Assembly (NCBI RefSeq): GCF_034119845.1 | Contig: NZ_CP139420.1 | Coordinates: 350,001 to 414,000, forward strand | Source: Flavobacterium sp. NG2 | GTDB lineage: Bacteria > Bacteroidota > Bacteroidia > Flavobacteriales > Flavobacteriaceae | Reading direction: 5' to 3' | DNA length: 64,000 nucleotides | Shown here: positions 13,598 to 21,997 of the stretch, in pieces | How positions within the stretch are numbered: the first letter of the stretch is position 1 | Layout: every line of letters starts with the position of its first letter | Made by a program: the position numbers and the translations under genes | The notes under the pieces: generated by a model | What the model was told of the DNA's origin: nothing | What the model saw: the letters and a program-made list of their open reading frames with translations, nothing else | The model's database searches: none

Positions 13598-16360
13598 CTA
13601 AACTTTCTCGTTAAAAAGAACCGTCTCATCCAAAATTTCACCCAATAACAACACAATTTGCCCCAAGAAATCATCCATTACATTGTTGTCAATTGTATAA
13701 TTGACTTCTTTTCCTTCTTTGAAATTAAAAGGCAAAAAGCCTGATTTTAAGTTTTTGAACGAAATAATTCCTGCTTCGATGGGTTTGTCTCCTGCTTCTT
13801 TTTCATACATATAGGCGTAGGCTAAAACCTGAATAATTTTGTCGTATTTGATATCGTCAATTAACCCTTTCCATGATTTTAGCGTCACACTTGATTTTTC
13901 GACTTTACCTGTTTTGTAATCAATAATTCGAATGGTTCCGTTGCGTTCTTCGATTCTATCGACATTTCCTTTAATAAGTACTGGGAATGGTAACAATGGA
14001 TGTGTTAATTCACGTTGAAAGGTAGTTTCGAGTGCGATAATCTTAATGGCATCTCCTGATTTGATTGTCTCTAATTCAACTTTCAAGAAATTAGACACAT
14101 TTCGTTTAGCCACTTCAAAAGCCAAGAGGTTGCGCCCTTTTTTGATTTCACCTTCTTTGTAAACCAGCTTGAATTGTTTTAAAACTTCGGCTTCCAAAAG
14201 CTTGAAGCATTCTAAAATATCATTTTCAGATAAAAACTTCCCAATAAAAGGAGTGTACAAAGCCTCTAAGGTTTCGTGAATAATTGTCCCCAAGGTATTC
14301 AACGCAATATTTTCTTCCACTTCTTCCACTTCACTAACACGTAAAATCTTTTGGAAATAAAACTGCATCGGATTCCGAATATAACTCGTCAATGCCGAAG
14401 GTGAAAATCCTTTTTCAGCAATTTCTTTTAGGCGCTCCATTACTAATGGTGATTTTTCGACAGCCATTGGTCTATATGCGGTTTCAGGAACTACCGCATT
14501 GTATATTTCATGTGACAGTGTATGATTGGGTTGTTTTTCAACCTCTAGTTGCGTAATAAATCGGCTTTTCTCACCTGCGTCGAGTCCGTCACTTTCTGTG
14601 TTATACAGTAGAAAAATATTTTTAGCGCGTTGCAACAAATGATAAAAATGATAGGTGTAAATAGCGTCTTTCTCTTTGAAAGTAGGCAAACCTAATTCAC
14701 GTTTCACATCATAGGGAATAAACGAATTTTGGGATTTCCCTGCAGGGAATTTCCCTTCATTCATCGAAGTAATAATTACGGTGTCAAAATCCAAAACCCT
14801 ACTCTCTAGCACTCCCATAATTTGCAAACCATTCAATGGCTCTCCTTCAAAAGAAACCTCAGCCAAATCAATTACTTGTTTGTAAATAGCGTGAAGCGTA
14901 TCTATTTTATCAATTTCGGGATGTTGAGTATAATAATTTATTAGTTTATTGATGACTTTAAAAATCGCATAAACGAATGACTTCGTGATTTTTTCTTCTT
15001 CGTTATCGTTACTAAGATTATTCTTGATAGCTAATAACAATTCCGAAACTGTTTCCAATACCGCGATTGAACCTGATTCCCATTTTTTAAACAACAACAA
15101 AAACAAATCTGTTGGTGCTGTATTAAGTTCGGTTAGTTTTTGATAGGTGATAAAGGTATAATTGTTCTCGTTGATGATTTTAACTAGCTTAGACGTTTTT
15201 GCATATGGCTCTACCAAAGGATGTGTCAAGATATCCAAAACATCTTTATAATAGAACACATAATTCTTTGCATTACGTGACAACGCATTAGTGTGCATTT
15301 TAAAAAGCTTCGCAATCAGGATTTGAGCAGGATTGTTTTTACTAGAATAGCCCATGGTAATATTCAAGGCACCAACACTAGCGGGTAAAGCATACAAAAG
15401 TGGAATCAAAACATTCTCTTCCCCTAGAACCACAGCAACTTTGTCAAGTGAAGCCGTTGGATTTTGTTCGATAATATTTTCAATAATACTTCCTGCAATT
15501 TTAGCCTGACCAATAGTCTTGGGTGTACCAATAACCTGAATGTTTTTGGACTGTGAAAACTCATCAACAATCCACTCAAAATGATTGCTTTTATAATGTT
15601 TCCAACTACTCTTAAAACGTCTTAAAAACAAACCTGCGTCATGATACGGGTCGTTCAAAAAGGTTTGATCCGCATCCCAAAGAATTTCGGCTTGATCAAC
15701 TGCTATAAGATGCTGAATGATTTTTTCTTCGGAAGCATTCAAAGCATTGAAGCCTGCAAATAGGTAATAACTCCCTTTTATTTCCTTAGAAAAGCTAGTC
15801 ACATTACCCACAGCCTCACGATAGATGAGCCCTTGATAACCTACTTTTTTTTGCAATAAATGAGCATATAATGATTGGTAATATTTAGGAAGTAATTTCC
15901 AGAAATCAATATACTTTTCTAATAGGGGCGTTTTATCTTCTACTTCAATTCCCCATTTTTTGATGTCCTCAATGTCTTTTAGATAAGACAACACATGAGT
16001 AGGATCTAATAAATAACGATCAATTTCATTAAAGTCTTGTAAAAGAGTTTTTGCCCAATTGGCAAAGAGTTCAAAAGACTGTTGATGTGCTTTATCGGTA
16101 ATTGATAAATAAACTTGGTAGAATTCAAACAGTAGTTCAATAGGGTCTATAGCCCTAATTTTGGCTATATTTTGAACAAAATCCTCAATGCTAATTATTT
16201 CGGGAGCGAGAATGTTTGTTTTTACTTGTTTTTTTAAGGCTTCTATTAAAAATACCTTTGCTCTTTTATTAGGCAAAACAATGACCCTGTTGGACAATTG
16301 TTCACTGTGATTTTCCAATAAATGGCTTGCAATTTTATCTAAAAAAGGAATCGTTGTCAT
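13598..16360 (-). CDS. AddB-like PD-(D/E)XK nuclease/helicase-like protein
   Basis: 920 residues. The N-terminal two thirds look like an inactivated UvrD/AddB-type scaffold (RVIVLPNKRAKVFLIEAL, ESRVLDFDTVIITSMNEGKFP). The C-terminal PD-(D/E)XK nuclease starts at FSPSALTSYIRNPMQFYFQK and contains GTIIHETLE, the GNVDRIEE Asp and the IIDYKTGKVE active site. It is the likely partner of the AddA-like gene at 18036-21794 in double-strand-break end resection. The two are separated by an unrelated OmpA gene. Confidence 0.88.
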   Translation of the reverse strand: MTTIPFLDKIASHLLENHSEQLSNRVIVLPNKRAKVFLIEALKKQVKTNILAPEIISIEDFVQNIAKIRAIDPIELLFEFYQVYLSITDKAHQQSFELFANWAKTLLQDFNEIDRYLLDPTHVLSYLKDIEDIKKWGIEVEDKTPLLEKYIDFWKLLPKYYQSLYAHLLQKKVGYQGLIYREAVGNVTSFSKEIKGSYYLFAGFNALNASEEKIIQHLIAVDQAEILWDADQTFLNDPYHDAGLFLRRFKSSWKHYKSNHFEWIVDEFSQSKNIQVIGTPKTIGQAKIAGSIIENIIEQNPTASLDKVAVVLGEENVLIPLLYALPASVGALNITMGYSSKNNPAQILIAKLFKMHTNALSRNAKNYVFYYKDVLDILTHPLVEPYAKTSKLVKIINENNYTFITYQKLTELNTAPTDLFLLLFKKWESGSIAVLETVSELLLAIKNNLSNDNEEEKITKSFVYAIFKVINKLINYYTQHPEIDKIDTLHAIYKQVIDLAEVSFEGEPLNGLQIMGVLESRVLDFDTVIITSMNEGKFPAGKSQNSFIPYDVKRELGLPTFKEKDAIYTYHFYHLLQRAKNIFLLYNTESDGLDAGEKSRFITQLEVEKQPNHTLSHEIYNAVVPETAYRPMAVEKSPLVMERLKEIAEKGFSPSALTSYIRNPMQFYFQKILRVSEVEEVEENIALNTLGTIIHETLEALYTPFIGKFLSENDILECFKLLEAEVLKQFKLVYKEGEIKKGRNLLAFEVAKRNVSNFLKVELETIKSGDAIKIIALETTFQRELTHPLLPFPVLIKGNVDRIEERNGTIRIIDYKTGKVEKSSVTLKSWKGLIDDIKYDKIIQVLAYAYMYEKEAGDKPIEAGIISFKNLKSGFLPFNFKEGKEVNYTIDNNVMDDFLGQIVLLLGEILDETVLFNEKV

Positions 16361-18035: not shown

Positions 18036-21000
18036 TTAAATTTCCACCACCTCTACAATATCACCTATATAAACTATTATTTTTGCCCCAACTTTATACC
18101 CCATAAGTTCAATCGCTGATTGGTAATTCTCCAACTGTTTTTGATACTTACTATTATGAGCTCCTGTTTTATAATCTAGTAACAATATGATATTGTCATT
18201 TGTTAAAACCATTCTATCAGGCTTTACTAGCCTTCCTTCTTTCTGAATTATCGTTTGTTCATTCATTACAGTATTTCCTTCTACAAAGAACAACTGTAAT
18301 TTATCATGATTAACAACCTCACTAAGTGTTTGCAGCACTACTTCTTTTTGCCCTAAGTGAATCAAACCATTTTCAATAGCTTTCTCAACAGCCAAATCAA
18401 CATCATGTTTTGTTTGCACAAACGAAAGTATCTCGTGAATCACATTACCATATGCAATAGACTCTTGTTGATGTGTACCCCACATTAAGGCTTCGCGTTG
18501 TGCAATTTTTATATTTTTAAAATCCAAAACATGCTCAACAGACGGAATCACTTTGGATGTATCAACATGTCTTTCAACTGGTGAAATTTTACCAGGACTT
18601 CCCCATTCATAATTATTTTTTTCTGGATTAAAATCAGCAAACTGCATTAAATAATGAATAAAAAACGACGACATATTATTTTCTTTCACTTCCCCTTTTG
18701 AGGTAAAGTTTCGATTCGATATAACATATAATTGTTCTTCAGCACGAGTCAATGCAACATATAAAACATTGATATTATCCAATAGATCTTCTTGTTTTTT
18801 TTGATCGTAAACAAATTTTGCTGCTTCTCCAAAACCTTCAACTGCTTTAGTATTATCAATAAGTACTTTGGGCAATCCTAAGGTTTCATCTTCATTTGCA
18901 AGCCACAATTTATCTTTCGGCTTCATCACATAATCTTCTTCAGCAAAAGGAAATATTACCACCGGAAACTCTAAACCTTTCGATTTATGAATGGTCATGA
19001 TACGAACTGCATTATTTCCTTCAGGGGATGGAATACTAAATTTACTGGCGTTTTTATCCCAAAAATTCAAAAAATCAGCAATCCCTGCTTGATTACGGAC
19101 GTCTCGTTCAAGAACGATGTCGAGGAAATATTGCACGTAGGCAGTCCCCACCCCAGCCCTTCCCTGAGGGGAGGGAGACTTTGTAAACTCTTTATCTATA
19201 GACGAATCATCCGAAACAAATAAATGGTCATTATTTGTTTCTAATTCCTCTTCATGTGTCGTTTTCAAATTAGAAAGCAATTCATTCTGAATTTGCAATT
19301 CTTTTCTTATTTTTTCTAATACAAATGAAATGTTTTTTATCACTTGTTCATTCGTAAAACGAATCACTTTGTATCCTAATCCATTTAAAACATTGGTTCG
19401 TTCTTGATCTGATAAAATTTGTTCGGGTGTGAAATGATAGTCCCCATCAACCTCAATAATTAGTCTTTTAGTTAAACAAACAAAATCAACAATATAGTTG
19501 TCTATTAAATGTTGTTGTCTAAACTTACTACCTAATGCTTGATTTTTAAGTTCAGACCATAAAATTTTCTCGGCTACGGTAGGCTCTTTTTGATGTTGAA
19601 TTGCCTTCTCAATTACTAAATGAGAATAGTTTCCACCAGTCAAATATCCTTTTTTAGTAGAAACGTTTGCATTATCAGAATTAGCTCCACTTCTAACATC
19701 AAGCATATCCACATCGCCTCCTCCTCCTTGGGAGAGGGCTGGGGGGAGGATAAACTTTCCAACAATTATCTCGACCGCCTCATACAATGATTTCTTTCGA
19801 ATGTTTTGAAATAAAAGCTGGATCCCAAATGTTTCAAGCCAATTTTCAAAATCAACTTCGTTTTTTAATTCCATTCCAGCGAGAATGAAATCATGGGTTG
19901 GCAACTGGTCTTGGTTGTTTTCGGCTAGGAAATATAAAAAATTAGCTTTAGCCTCTATGTTGGCGTTATTCTTTAAGTATTTTAATAAGTCAATAATGAA
20001 GCGAACCTCAGTCGCATTTTGAATCATTAAAGTTTCAGACGATAGCAAAGGGATTTTTTGTTCTGTCAAATAATTAGCAATCGCGACACCTTGGTCGCGT
20101 TTACGGGTGAGAATTACAATATCCTTATATTCAAAACCAGATTGAAGTACTTTTTCAATGGTTTGATGTGTGGCTTGCAAGTACAAATCAGTTTTATCTA
20201 AGATTTCCTCCTCTTCCTCATCGGATTTTTCAATTTCCGGGATAAAGGATATATTAACATAACCTCCTGTTTTATCGTTTGTTTTTTGATGGCTATGGTT
20301 TTCGTATAAATCTTTATAATCAGGATGCTCAAATTCTGAAGAGAGCATTTTAAAAAAAGCATTATTGAAATTAATCACTTCCGAATAACTACGGTAGTTT
20401 TTATCCAAATGAACTAAATCCTTATCCGGATTATTGAACGGATTCAAATCCTTGCTTAGGTCAATAAATTGTTCGGCTTTTCCACCACGCCAGCGGTATA
20501 TAGATTGTTTTGGGTCACCCACAATCATCAAAGTTCCTTTGTCGCCATAATCATCCTGACCCGAAAGAGCATTATCAATCAGTGGAATCAGGTTTTGCCA
20601 TTGCATTTCGGAGGTGTCTTGAAATTCATCAATAAAAAAATGACGGTATCTTTCTCCCAATCGCTCATAGATAAAAGGAGCGGGTTGATTTTGAATTTGG
20701 TTATGTATAATAGCATTAAATTCGGTAATAGAGAGTACATTTTGTTCTTCTTGAATTTTAGCCAATTCATTACTAACCGTATTTAGTAACGAAAGCGGTG
20801 TGATGTTTTTGAGAAAAGCTTTGTAAAAATCACGCTTTGCAAAATTAGCATAGACAACCGCTAGTTGTTGTAATAGTTCTGGGATAATCGATTCTATTAT
20901 TTCACGGTCTTTTGCCGTTTTGTTAATGGCGATATCCTCAAACTCATGAAAAGTTTTGTTTTTAGGATTGAATTTTCCATCTCGAATACTAACTACATGA

Positions 21001-21794
21001 TTAGGGAAAGTGCCACGAGAAAAAGATTTTAAGTCAATTCCTTTTTGCTCGATTAAGGACAGTACAGTTTCTGCCTGTTTCTGATTCTCTTCTTCTAATT
21101 CTTTACAAATAACATTGAGTTTCTTTTTAATTTCCACAAATTCAACAATATTCTTATCATGAAAATGCAGGATTTCGTTGCGGTGATTTTCGTTGAGCAC
21201 TAATCGTCCAGTATCAAGAATTTCCCGTGAGACATCCCAAGATTTATCATCATCGGTTTTCTCCATTGTAAAATCGATTAGTAACTTGGTCAAGGTTTCG
21301 TCCTCACCTGCTTGTGCTATAATAGCATCCACGGCTTCAATTAATAGATTTTCGGTATCCAAAGTAACTTCGAAAGTCATAGGTAAATTCAAATCGTGCG
21401 CAAAAGCTCTAATAACCTTATGCGTGAATTTATCAATAGTCGAAATATCAAAAGCAGCATAATTATGAATGATGTGCTTGATTATTTGTTGAGATTTGAC
21501 CTTGATTTGAGTTAGTGAGAGCTTGACCTCCCACTCCTTTGTATCTTCGACAAGGTTATTCATCAAGTCTAAAGCTTTTGCTGATGGTTCATCCTTAGCA
21601 AACTCAGACAAACTTCCCACAATACGGGATTTCATTTCATGTACCGCTTTGTTGGTAAATGTTATAGCCAAGATGTTTCTATAAGCGTCATTTTTACGAG
21701 CAGTGAGAATAATTTTGAGGTATTCTTTGACCAGATTATAGGTTTTTCCGGATCCTGCTGAGGCGTCGTATATGGAGAATGAATGTCTTTGCAT
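18036..21794 (-). CDS. AddA-like UvrD helicase/nuclease carrying an internal DUF559 insert
   Basis: 1252 residues from the chosen start. Helicase motifs: Walker A ASAGSGKT (residues 11-18), AITFTNKA, FFIDEFQDTSEMQW, GDPKQSIYRWRGG, LDKNYRS, IMTIHKSKGLEFPVV and NVLYVALTRAEEQLYV. The C-terminal PD-(D/E)XK nuclease has KPDRMV and LLLDYKTG. It likely unwinds and resects DNA ends with the AddB-like protein. Residues 684-884 are an in-frame insert with a DUF559 domain, splitting two contiguous helicase segments (ending VGKFIL and resuming AYVQYFLDIVL). A longer in-frame start at 21863 is rejected: its 23 extra residues are translated hairpin repeat and spacer. Confidence 0.92.
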   Translation of the reverse strand: MQRHSFSIYDASAGSGKTYNLVKEYLKIILTARKNDAYRNILAITFTNKAVHEMKSRIVGSLSEFAKDEPSAKALDLMNNLVEDTKEWEVKLSLTQIKVKSQQIIKHIIHNYAAFDISTIDKFTHKVIRAFAHDLNLPMTFEVTLDTENLLIEAVDAIIAQAGEDETLTKLLIDFTMEKTDDDKSWDVSREILDTGRLVLNENHRNEILHFHDKNIVEFVEIKKKLNVICKELEEENQKQAETVLSLIEQKGIDLKSFSRGTFPNHVVSIRDGKFNPKNKTFHEFEDIAINKTAKDREIIESIIPELLQQLAVVYANFAKRDFYKAFLKNITPLSLLNTVSNELAKIQEEQNVLSITEFNAIIHNQIQNQPAPFIYERLGERYRHFFIDEFQDTSEMQWQNLIPLIDNALSGQDDYGDKGTLMIVGDPKQSIYRWRGGKAEQFIDLSKDLNPFNNPDKDLVHLDKNYRSYSEVINFNNAFFKMLSSEFEHPDYKDLYENHSHQKTNDKTGGYVNISFIPEIEKSDEEEEEILDKTDLYLQATHQTIEKVLQSGFEYKDIVILTRKRDQGVAIANYLTEQKIPLLSSETLMIQNATEVRFIIDLLKYLKNNANIEAKANFLYFLAENNQDQLPTHDFILAGMELKNEVDFENWLETFGIQLLFQNIRKKSLYEAVEIIVGKFILPPALSQGGGGDVDMLDVRSGANSDNANVSTKKGYLTGGNYSHLVIEKAIQHQKEPTVAEKILWSELKNQALGSKFRQQHLIDNYIVDFVCLTKRLIIEVDGDYHFTPEQILSDQERTNVLNGLGYKVIRFTNEQVIKNISFVLEKIRKELQIQNELLSNLKTTHEEELETNNDHLFVSDDSSIDKEFTKSPSPQGRAGVGTAYVQYFLDIVLERDVRNQAGIADFLNFWDKNASKFSIPSPEGNNAVRIMTIHKSKGLEFPVVIFPFAEEDYVMKPKDKLWLANEDETLGLPKVLIDNTKAVEGFGEAAKFVYDQKKQEDLLDNINVLYVALTRAEEQLYVISNRNFTSKGEVKENNMSSFFIHYLMQFADFNPEKNNYEWGSPGKISPVERHVDTSKVIPSVEHVLDFKNIKIAQREALMWGTHQQESIAYGNVIHEILSFVQTKHDVDLAVEKAIENGLIHLGQKEVVLQTLSEVVNHDKLQLFFVEGNTVMNEQTIIQKEGRLVKPDRMVLTNDNIILLLDYKTGAHNSKYQKQLENYQSAIELMGYKVGAKIIVYIGDIVEVVEI
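19143..19750 (-). mobile_element. In-frame DUF559 insertion element inside the AddA-like gene
   Basis: About 603 bp (201 codons) without a stop. The ends are GC-rich imperfect inverted repeats: at 19144 inward, GTCCCCACCCCAGCCCTTCC; from 19751 inward, ATCCTCCCCCCAGCCCTCTC. Each is followed by a small hairpin (CCCTTCCC-TGA-GGGGAGGG type). They are read through as PPALSQGGGG and SPSPQGRAGVG. The core shows DUF559 family features: EKILWSELKN, GSKFRQQHLI, YIVDFVC, LIIEVDGDYH, ER..VLNGLGYKVIRFTNEQV. DUF559 is related to very-short-patch-repair endonucleases, and the apparent Asp/Glu active-site residues (VDF, IIEVDG) are intact. Confidence 0.75.
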
Positions 21795-21823
21795 AACTTT
21801 ATATTGTTGATTACGAAATCTCC

Positions 21824-21887
21824 TAGCCCCAATAGAAGCGAAAATCCTTGTGGGGGCTGGCATTTATGCCCCACAAGATTACTACAC
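21824..21887 (-). repeat. Dispersed hairpin repeat, copy G
   Basis: The stem CTTGTGGGG (21847-21855) pairs with CCCCACAAG (21869-21877). The outer frame TAGCCCCAATAGAAGCG resembles copy C. The loop GGCATAAATGCC and the GGATTT..CTTCTAT flank match copy D at 36242-36333. It lies just upstream of the AddA-like start. Confidence 0.75.
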
Positions 21888-21997
21888 TTGACTTTTATTT
21901 CATCGGAGTTCAGTGAACTTCGTTTGTAGCGGATAGTGAGAAACAGCTTCTGAAAAATCAGAAACTATAAAATTGCGTATATAATGCTTAAAAGTAG

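Follow-up and report, generated by a model that had tools for sequence, protein, structure and literature searches.

A candidate homing-like DUF559 cassette with REP-like ends, translated in frame within AddA and other conserved proteins of Flavobacterium

Why should a recombination helicase carry, in the middle of its reading frame, a nuclease domain that most of its orthologues in the genus lack? The question is raised by the addA gene of Flavobacterium sp. NG2, located in the 64,000-nucleotide stretch analysed here (contig NZ_CP139420.1, positions 350,001 to 414,000), which we call the window and whose coordinates are used throughout. The gene (18036..21863, minus strand) codes for an AddA/RecB-like helicase-nuclease of the UvrD family in an ORF of 1275 residues; the protein probably starts at M24, giving 1252 residues, the length of the database protein P0002. 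The whole translated insert comprises 202 residues (705-906; 19146..19751, minus strand), is missing in most same-genus orthologues examined, and separates the host text ...YEAVEIIVGKF from TAYVQYFLDIV.... The PF04480 (DUF559) profile matches with 105 bits for a cut-off of 20.6, inside the span of the UvrD_C match, and this DUF559-type nuclease is the sole Pfam domain within the insert; a transposase is absent. The original prediction of a stop-free, in-frame DUF559 insert in an AddA-type helicase is confirmed in these respects, since the host resumes after residue 906 and the 1275-residue ORF is open throughout; the span of 684-884 given at that time is about the same one, counted from the later start M24. 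A PD-(D/E)XK profile also matches the C-terminus of AddA itself, though weakly (E 0.023, below cut-off). Up to E 1, no Hint domain was found among the Pfam matches of the AddA-like protein, and no Rfam intron in the insert. In its surroundings, the gene has a downstream partner coding for an AddB-like protein with a PD-(D/E)XK domain (13598-16360, minus strand), and a sub-threshold match to the Rfam Flavo-1 RNA is present at its 5' end (21821-21947, plus strand; 33.7 bits, gathering 42, E 1.6e-4).

Read in the sense of the gene, the insert begins with a GC-rich end (19711..19750), translated as ILPPALSQGGGG and similar to ends in other hosts. It continues with an N-side linker (19599..19710), mostly predicted to be disordered and harbouring a GYLTGGNYS motif ahead of the nuclease; GYMTGG replaces GYLTGG in several other cassette copies. 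The DUF559 domain itself, a Vsr-family PD-(D/E)XK nuclease with intact active-site residues, occupies residues 756-857 (19293..19598) and is followed by a C-side linker, for the most part predicted to be disordered (19185..19292), and by a GC-rich inverted end (19145..19184) that is translated as SPSPQGRAGVG and corresponds on the plus strand to CCCCAGCCCTTCCCTGAGGGGAGG; all five features lie on the minus strand. The two ends have a GC content of 65-68%, against 35% for the window, and are 70% complementary over 40 nt, and their inverted match was equalled by 1 of 1000 dinucleotide shuffles, in agreement with the imperfect inverted repeats originally described. When folded as single-strand hairpins, they did not outperform shuffled sequences (z -0.14 and +0.99). 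They give the impression of worn copies, more regular ones being found in relatives.

The profile match and the active-site residues both place the domain in the DUF559/Vsr family of PD-(D/E)XK nucleases. AlphaFold2 models it with confidence (mean pLDDT 85.8), and structure comparison gave as best solved matches 3hrl and the homing endonuclease I-Bth0305I (3r3p), with E. coli Vsr (1cw0) ranking lower (E 8.6e-3); a profile search was concordant (3hrl 1.5e-35, 3r3p 6.2e-7). When the C-terminal 796 residues of the protein were modelled (pTM only 0.47), the nuclease came to lie between two host helices, held by two tethers that are mostly below a pLDDT of 50. All six Vsr-type active-site residues are present in 196 of 199 distinct DUF559 domains, and are complete in 164 of the 165 copies in long frames. 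By our reading of the residue list given for Caulobacter VsrA in part of PMC12907096, the six match in order, the first four nearly in spacing too. Median dN/dS values for the domain are 0.16 at the window's AddA site (AddA1), 0.13 in RecG, 0.26 and 0.12 at the two MetH sites (MetH1 and MetH2) and 0.30 at LeuRS_A, with lower values for the corresponding host parts (0.07, 0.03, 0.08, 0.05 and 0.12, respectively). At the level of coding sequence, the active site is kept under purifying selection, and a need to fold harmlessly could account in part for the low values of the insert.

With regard to the AddA site in other species, only three of 36 same-genus relatives (G007, G029 and G036) have the insert. 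Almost all the remaining ones give two separate host matches, ending near residue 705 and restarting near 906; those of G028 come from two contigs. The DNA of four of these relatives (L007-L010) holds one palindrome in place of the insert, judged by eye to be intact in L008, half in L009, and decayed in L007 and L010. With carriers from the wider genus added, the site holds 23 distinct inserts, including that of the window. An AddA tree of 46 rows (22 full, 20 none and 4 solo) was built with the insert columns removed; on it, the insert states require 11 changes against a shuffled mean of 18.2 and are therefore partly inherited, while starred branches alone force at least 8 changes for the full state. 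All four solo rows belong to one clade of 10, together with 5 full rows and 1 empty row. The nearest neighbour of the window's row is L006, which is empty, and the next two are the solo rows L008 and L009. The empty relative L011 has CCTGAACCCA at the place of CCTCACCCCA in the full row L104, which fits a loss of the insert.

The same kind of cassette is found again, in frame and at defined positions in linkers, in many conserved proteins that are unrelated to each other and whose close orthologues are without it. DUF559 is present in 218 of 398 Flavobacterium genomes and in 222 of 395 genomes drawn across the phylum. Several further expectations of the original prediction can be judged against this distribution. 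The insert is indeed absent from AddA in most of the 36 Flavobacterium relatives, and it corresponds to DUF559 rather than to a normal AddA subdomain or to a feature of all close orthologues. The search for further copies with similar ends yielded many hosts in related genomes but nothing more in the NG2 genome, where DUF559 occurs once. What supports the notion of a palindromic element that is maintained through translation and brings its own nuclease is the presence of such cassettes in many unrelated hosts, mobility driven by that nuclease being what we infer; the emphasis on a DNA-repair host holds for AddA here, but the general class is not bound to such hosts.

At least 124 long frames of the genus (250 residues or more) contain DUF559, with at least 44 in MetH, 36 in LeuRS, 24 in AddA, 16 in RecG and 4 in others; these host counts are lower bounds, places retrieved twice are counted twice, and here as elsewhere free-standing copies and terminal fusions are included unless stated. 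Pfam and NCBIfam matches identify as in-frame internal hosts MetH, at two sites (the linker between two B12 domains, and the activation domain), LeuRS, at three sites, RecG and IleRS, and further a second AddA site, a methylmalonyl-CoA mutase fusion protein, PurL, HsdR, HsdM and type ISP restriction enzymes, so that restriction/methylase proteins are among the hosts. Terminal fusions were found with HisF, HemF, HemD and RNase H, and several cases outside the main hosts are of this kind and not internal inserts. One HsdR carrier (L200:2775-6791, plus strand) also has an internal GIY-YIG nuclease domain at residues 251-316, perhaps a second type of inserted nuclease.

A database search with long proteins returned 866 matches with a DUF559 part, of which the best 120 were examined, and a second protein search that took in shorter proteins returned 72 DUF559 matches. 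Mostly from the usual meaning of their Pfam domains, we take the shorter hosts to be UDP-galactopyranose mutase, the CCA-adding enzyme, and acyl-CoA synthetase-like, queuine transglycosylase-like and TsaD-like proteins. Among the matches listed, 203 DUF559 domains were recognised in 192 proteins (none above threshold in P0191), 153 of them with more than 100 residues on either side, and 11 of the 192 proteins had two or more. Two cassettes in a single host occur in MetH (L035/L158 and L055/L159, at both MetH sites), LeuRS (L064) and PurL (P0013).

A scan of named genomes detected the exact palindrome pattern of the ends in records of many phyla, and at least 80 loci (118 stretches) were examined among the matches listed. 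By eye, and again among these matches, in-frame cassettes were recognised in HsdM-like and HsdR-like hosts of Verrucomicrobiota (L336, L390) and in a ValRS-like host of Chloroflexota (L377); the insertion in Verrucomicrobiota HsdM is apparently at the L199/L210 position of the window's phylum. The window's DUF559 had no close match in phages or plasmids, where 2 phage and 38 plasmid records all stayed below 60% identity. Of note, some empty MetH2 and LeuRS_A sites (L053, L059 and L309) contain short CCGACAAC/CCAACAAC-like tandem repeats in the same linker, indicating that these linkers tolerate other inserts too. As hosts recur at linkers where some empty relatives hold other junk, the choice of sites may largely reflect survivorship.

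The ends behave in a similar manner across hosts. For copies in frames of at least 250 residues, 115 of 162 had inverted ends that matched better than every one of 60 shuffles, as did 18 of 33 others; 195 of the 199 distinct domains were used and four dropped for too little flank. By site, this was the case for 20 of 23 copies at AddA1, 29 of 37 at LeuRS_A, 26 of 37 at MetH1, 7 of 10 at MetH2 and 1 of 17 in RecG. The consensus established by eye, CCTCACCCCCAACCCC-TCTCC-loop-GGAGA-GGGGAGC, has no stop in any of the three frames when placed on the left; on the right, two of the three are open. The host peptides at the cassette ends resemble its frames. Carriers differ in the frame in which the ends are translated at one LeuRS position, which suggests separate insertions; the phase table is approximate, relying on one consensus and simple placement, so that single entries may be wrong, and many MetH and RecG ends do not fit the consensus. 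When the 14 best pairs of filled and unfilled sites were inspected by eye, host homology ended at the palindromes or within about a dozen nucleotides of them in 13, RecG L116 being the exception, and no clear target-site duplication or shared target motif was seen by eye in these 14 pairs (89-94% flank identity). Six free-standing DUF559 ORFs of the genus (L046, L057, L073, L074, L076 and L078) are flanked by another palindrome variant, CTCCCTTTAGGGTYGGGG-like, suggesting that there are families of ends.

Most of the palindromes scanned stand alone. The pattern is present in 15 of 60 genomes (NG2 and 59 relatives), against 0 of 60 for a reversed-pattern control. Among 37 genomes of the genus, a strong DUF559 match (E < 1e-20) was found in 11 of 14 with the palindrome versus 6 of 23 without it, although some palindromes are the cassettes' own ends and the two variables are thus not independent. 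Among the matches listed in the cross-phylum scan, 80 of 86 exact palindromes lack a DUF559 within 700 bp, and the six that do have it are all oriented as expected; random positions taken from those loci give 2.2%. The NG2 genome holds three more exact palindromes, all solo and apparently outside genes, two just 5' of a likely start codon and one outside any frame of at least 100 residues. The same genome has four strong RAYT-like Y1_Tnp matches (G000:C1 953457, 3749193, 781319 and 1023295) in frames of about 120-160 residues.

The DUF559 tree groups by insertion site, with 33 label changes against a shuffled mean of 136, on an alignment of few columns that leaves many weak forks. The changes number 1 for AddA1, 1 for RecG, 5 for MetH1 and 4 for LeuRS_A, of which starred branches force only 2 (MetH1) and 1 (LeuRS_A). 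Distances between inserts correlate with those between hosts (Mantel r 0.43 for AddA1, 0.75 for RecG, 0.52 for MetH1, 0.65 for MetH2 and 0.24 for LeuRS_A), from which it follows that vertical descent dominates, accompanied by losses. Presence on the host tree is patchy. Silent divergence of the insert was less than half that of the host in 10 of 728 pairs, and more than 1.5 times as high in 5 of 728; signatures of transfer, such as spread into cognate empty sites would leave, are seen in a minority of pairs. Silent differences amount to 1/74 in the insert versus 99/443 in the host for RecG L149/L145 (p 1.6e-6), 13/75 versus 362/720 for AddA L104/L005 (p 2e-8) and 5/75 versus 193/312 for MetH1 L129/L105 (p 9e-20); these pairs were picked as extreme, the counts are approximate (fixed site fraction) and the p values precede correction for 1813 pairs. 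Within the domain, L129 and L105 are 96-99% identical; in the flank downstream of it the value drops to 73-88%, except for one 97% bin. Because the completeness listed for these two genomes is 76 and 77% and one contig stops at the element, more weight is given to RecG L149/L145, AddA L104/L005 and LeuRS L161/L093, from genomes with a listed completeness of 99-100%. Silent sites indicate that in a few cases the history of transmission of the insert differs from that of the host gene, and some inserts have probably moved between species.

With a probability of about 0.6, we regard the window's insert as one copy of a mobile, homing-like DUF559 cassette with REP-like ends, which is translated and not spliced. 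That the cassette is recurrent and insertable is well supported, and we infer that the nuclease drives its movement. The unit would consist of a REP-like palindromic end, a linker, the Vsr-family nuclease, a second linker and the inverted end, in about 0.4-0.7 kb free of stops. Translated together with its host protein, to which flexible tethers rich in Pro and Gly attach it, DUF559 would cut an empty allele or a palindromic end, and the cassette would be copied in through recombination repair in the manner of a homing endonuclease, with no intron or intein for its removal. It would persist only where the host protein bears a loop; new sites would be rare, probably reached by way of the palindromic ends, and loss would leave a solo palindrome or a short scar. 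Homing is consistent with an anatomy reduced to a nuclease and inverted ends, with lineages that follow the insertion site, with alleles that are empty or hold a solo palindrome, and with an active site that has stayed intact; the occasional transfers agree with it as well. As for the palindromes, they may serve as ends for the nuclease, as REP targets of Y1 transposases, or both.

This last point leads to another reading, in which RAYT (Y1/HUH) transposases from other places in the genome mobilise the ends as REP sequences, and DUF559 travels along as a passenger between two REPs. The REP-like, mostly solo nature of the ends and the Y1_Tnp matches in 34 of the 60 genomes, NG2 included, speak for it; yet no Y1_Tnp match was obtained in G029, where the palindrome occurs at 13 distinct places and DUF559 is matched twice, and a passenger should decay, whereas the six residues are nearly always intact and dN/dS is low. 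We consider it unlikely. More doubtful still is that the inserts are old and immobile, each site having been filled once and the insert then inherited vertically with repeated loss. Such a history would agree with the correlated insert and host distances, with AddA1 and RecG inserts each falling on one side of a branch (support 94 and 90, unstarred), with the few changes forced by starred branches in MetH1 and LeuRS_A, and with the solo-palindrome rows sharing one clade with full rows, but it is at odds with the excess silent-site similarity of several pairs, including those from 99-100% complete genomes, and with the LeuRS position at which, approximately, the ends differ in frame among carriers.

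Purifying selection on the insert would also be expected if the host had gained a useful domain, for instance an extra AddA nuclease for recombination or defence. Such cassettes also occupy tRNA synthetases, methionine synthase and purine enzymes, the insert comes and goes among close species, and a nuclease match, albeit weak and below cut-off, is already present at the C-terminus of AddA, all of which makes this very improbable. Removal after transcription or translation, in an intron-like or intein-like way, would explain why LeuRS and IleRS, which are presumably essential, tolerate the insert; it is hardly to be expected of a sequence that is open in the host frame from end to end and in which neither Hint domain nor Rfam intron was detected to E 1. 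Since the window's copy lacks both, the homing-like cassette seems instead to survive through its harmlessness as a loop.

Inteins with homing endonucleases are likewise in-frame, nuclease-bearing insertions in conserved proteins, with site-specific lineages and empty alleles. The DUF559 cassette shares all of these traits but is devoid of a splicing domain, and its ends are palindromic DNA instead of splice residues. In REP/RAYT and REPIN systems, GC-rich palindromes occur as inverted pairs and as numerous solo copies; REP sequences are treated in PMC3733652. The cassette ends have the same properties. Unlike in those systems, the nuclease of the cassette is of the Vsr type and not Y1/HUH, and the insertion lies inside proteins. 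The window's insert contains no Y1 transposase; for lack of any transposase there, it differs from insertion sequences and MITEs. Rickettsia palindromic elements are short and are not known to carry an enzyme. According to the part of PMC3733652 that deals with them, they sit in frame within ORFs likely encoding functional proteins, as the cassette ends do here, but the cassette holds a complete nuclease between two palindromes. I-Bth0305I is related to the DUF559 domain in fold and sequence, but 3r3p was deposited as a 'mobile intron protein', whereas the Rfam search showed no intron around DUF559 here, and the domain is fused to the host. A VSR signature is found among intron-encoded phage nucleases, in the relevant part of PMC11878797. 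More generally, homing endonucleases are intron- or intein-borne or free-standing, whereas the nuclease of the cassette is fused in frame to its host and no splicing part was found with it. Finally, VsrA and free-standing DUF559/Vsr-like proteins have the domain in common with the cassette, with an equal order of active-site residues; the passages of PMC12907096 on Caulobacter VsrA present it as a separate gene with a proposed role in mismatch repair, in contrast to a cassette inside another protein.

On the anatomy read from the DNA, the cassette departs in at least one tested defining feature from inteins, group I/II introns, homing elements, Rickettsia palindromic elements and IS/MITEs alike, its relation to REP/RAYT systems being less clear-cut. 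It is for this reason that we hold it to be new, and not because its mechanism is proven; it seems to be a hitherto undescribed form of mobile DNA, maintained by being translated within the host protein. Searches of open-access full text returned nothing on DUF559 with inverted repeats, nor on DUF559 together with tRNA synthetase and insertion, and among open-access papers on DUF559, judged by title and start of abstract, none concerns such cassettes; subscription papers and preprints lie outside this scope. The chances are about even that we are dealing with a new class of mobile DNA, in which REP-ended cassettes of Vsr-family nucleases, found in several phyla, home without splicing and stay permanently translated inside essential enzymes, the nuclease being at once the engine of the element and a domain of its host.

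An essential gene can normally harbour a mobile element only if splicing removes it, and the DUF559 cassettes appear to need no such step, persisting as loops in LeuRS, IleRS, MetH, RecG and AddA. They show a way, open to testing, in which proteins may acquire domains, provide many DUF559 copies with a likely biological context and, in DUF559, suggest a possible cargo for REP-like palindromes. Many housekeeping proteins would accordingly carry a nuclease that annotation reads as a part of the host enzyme.
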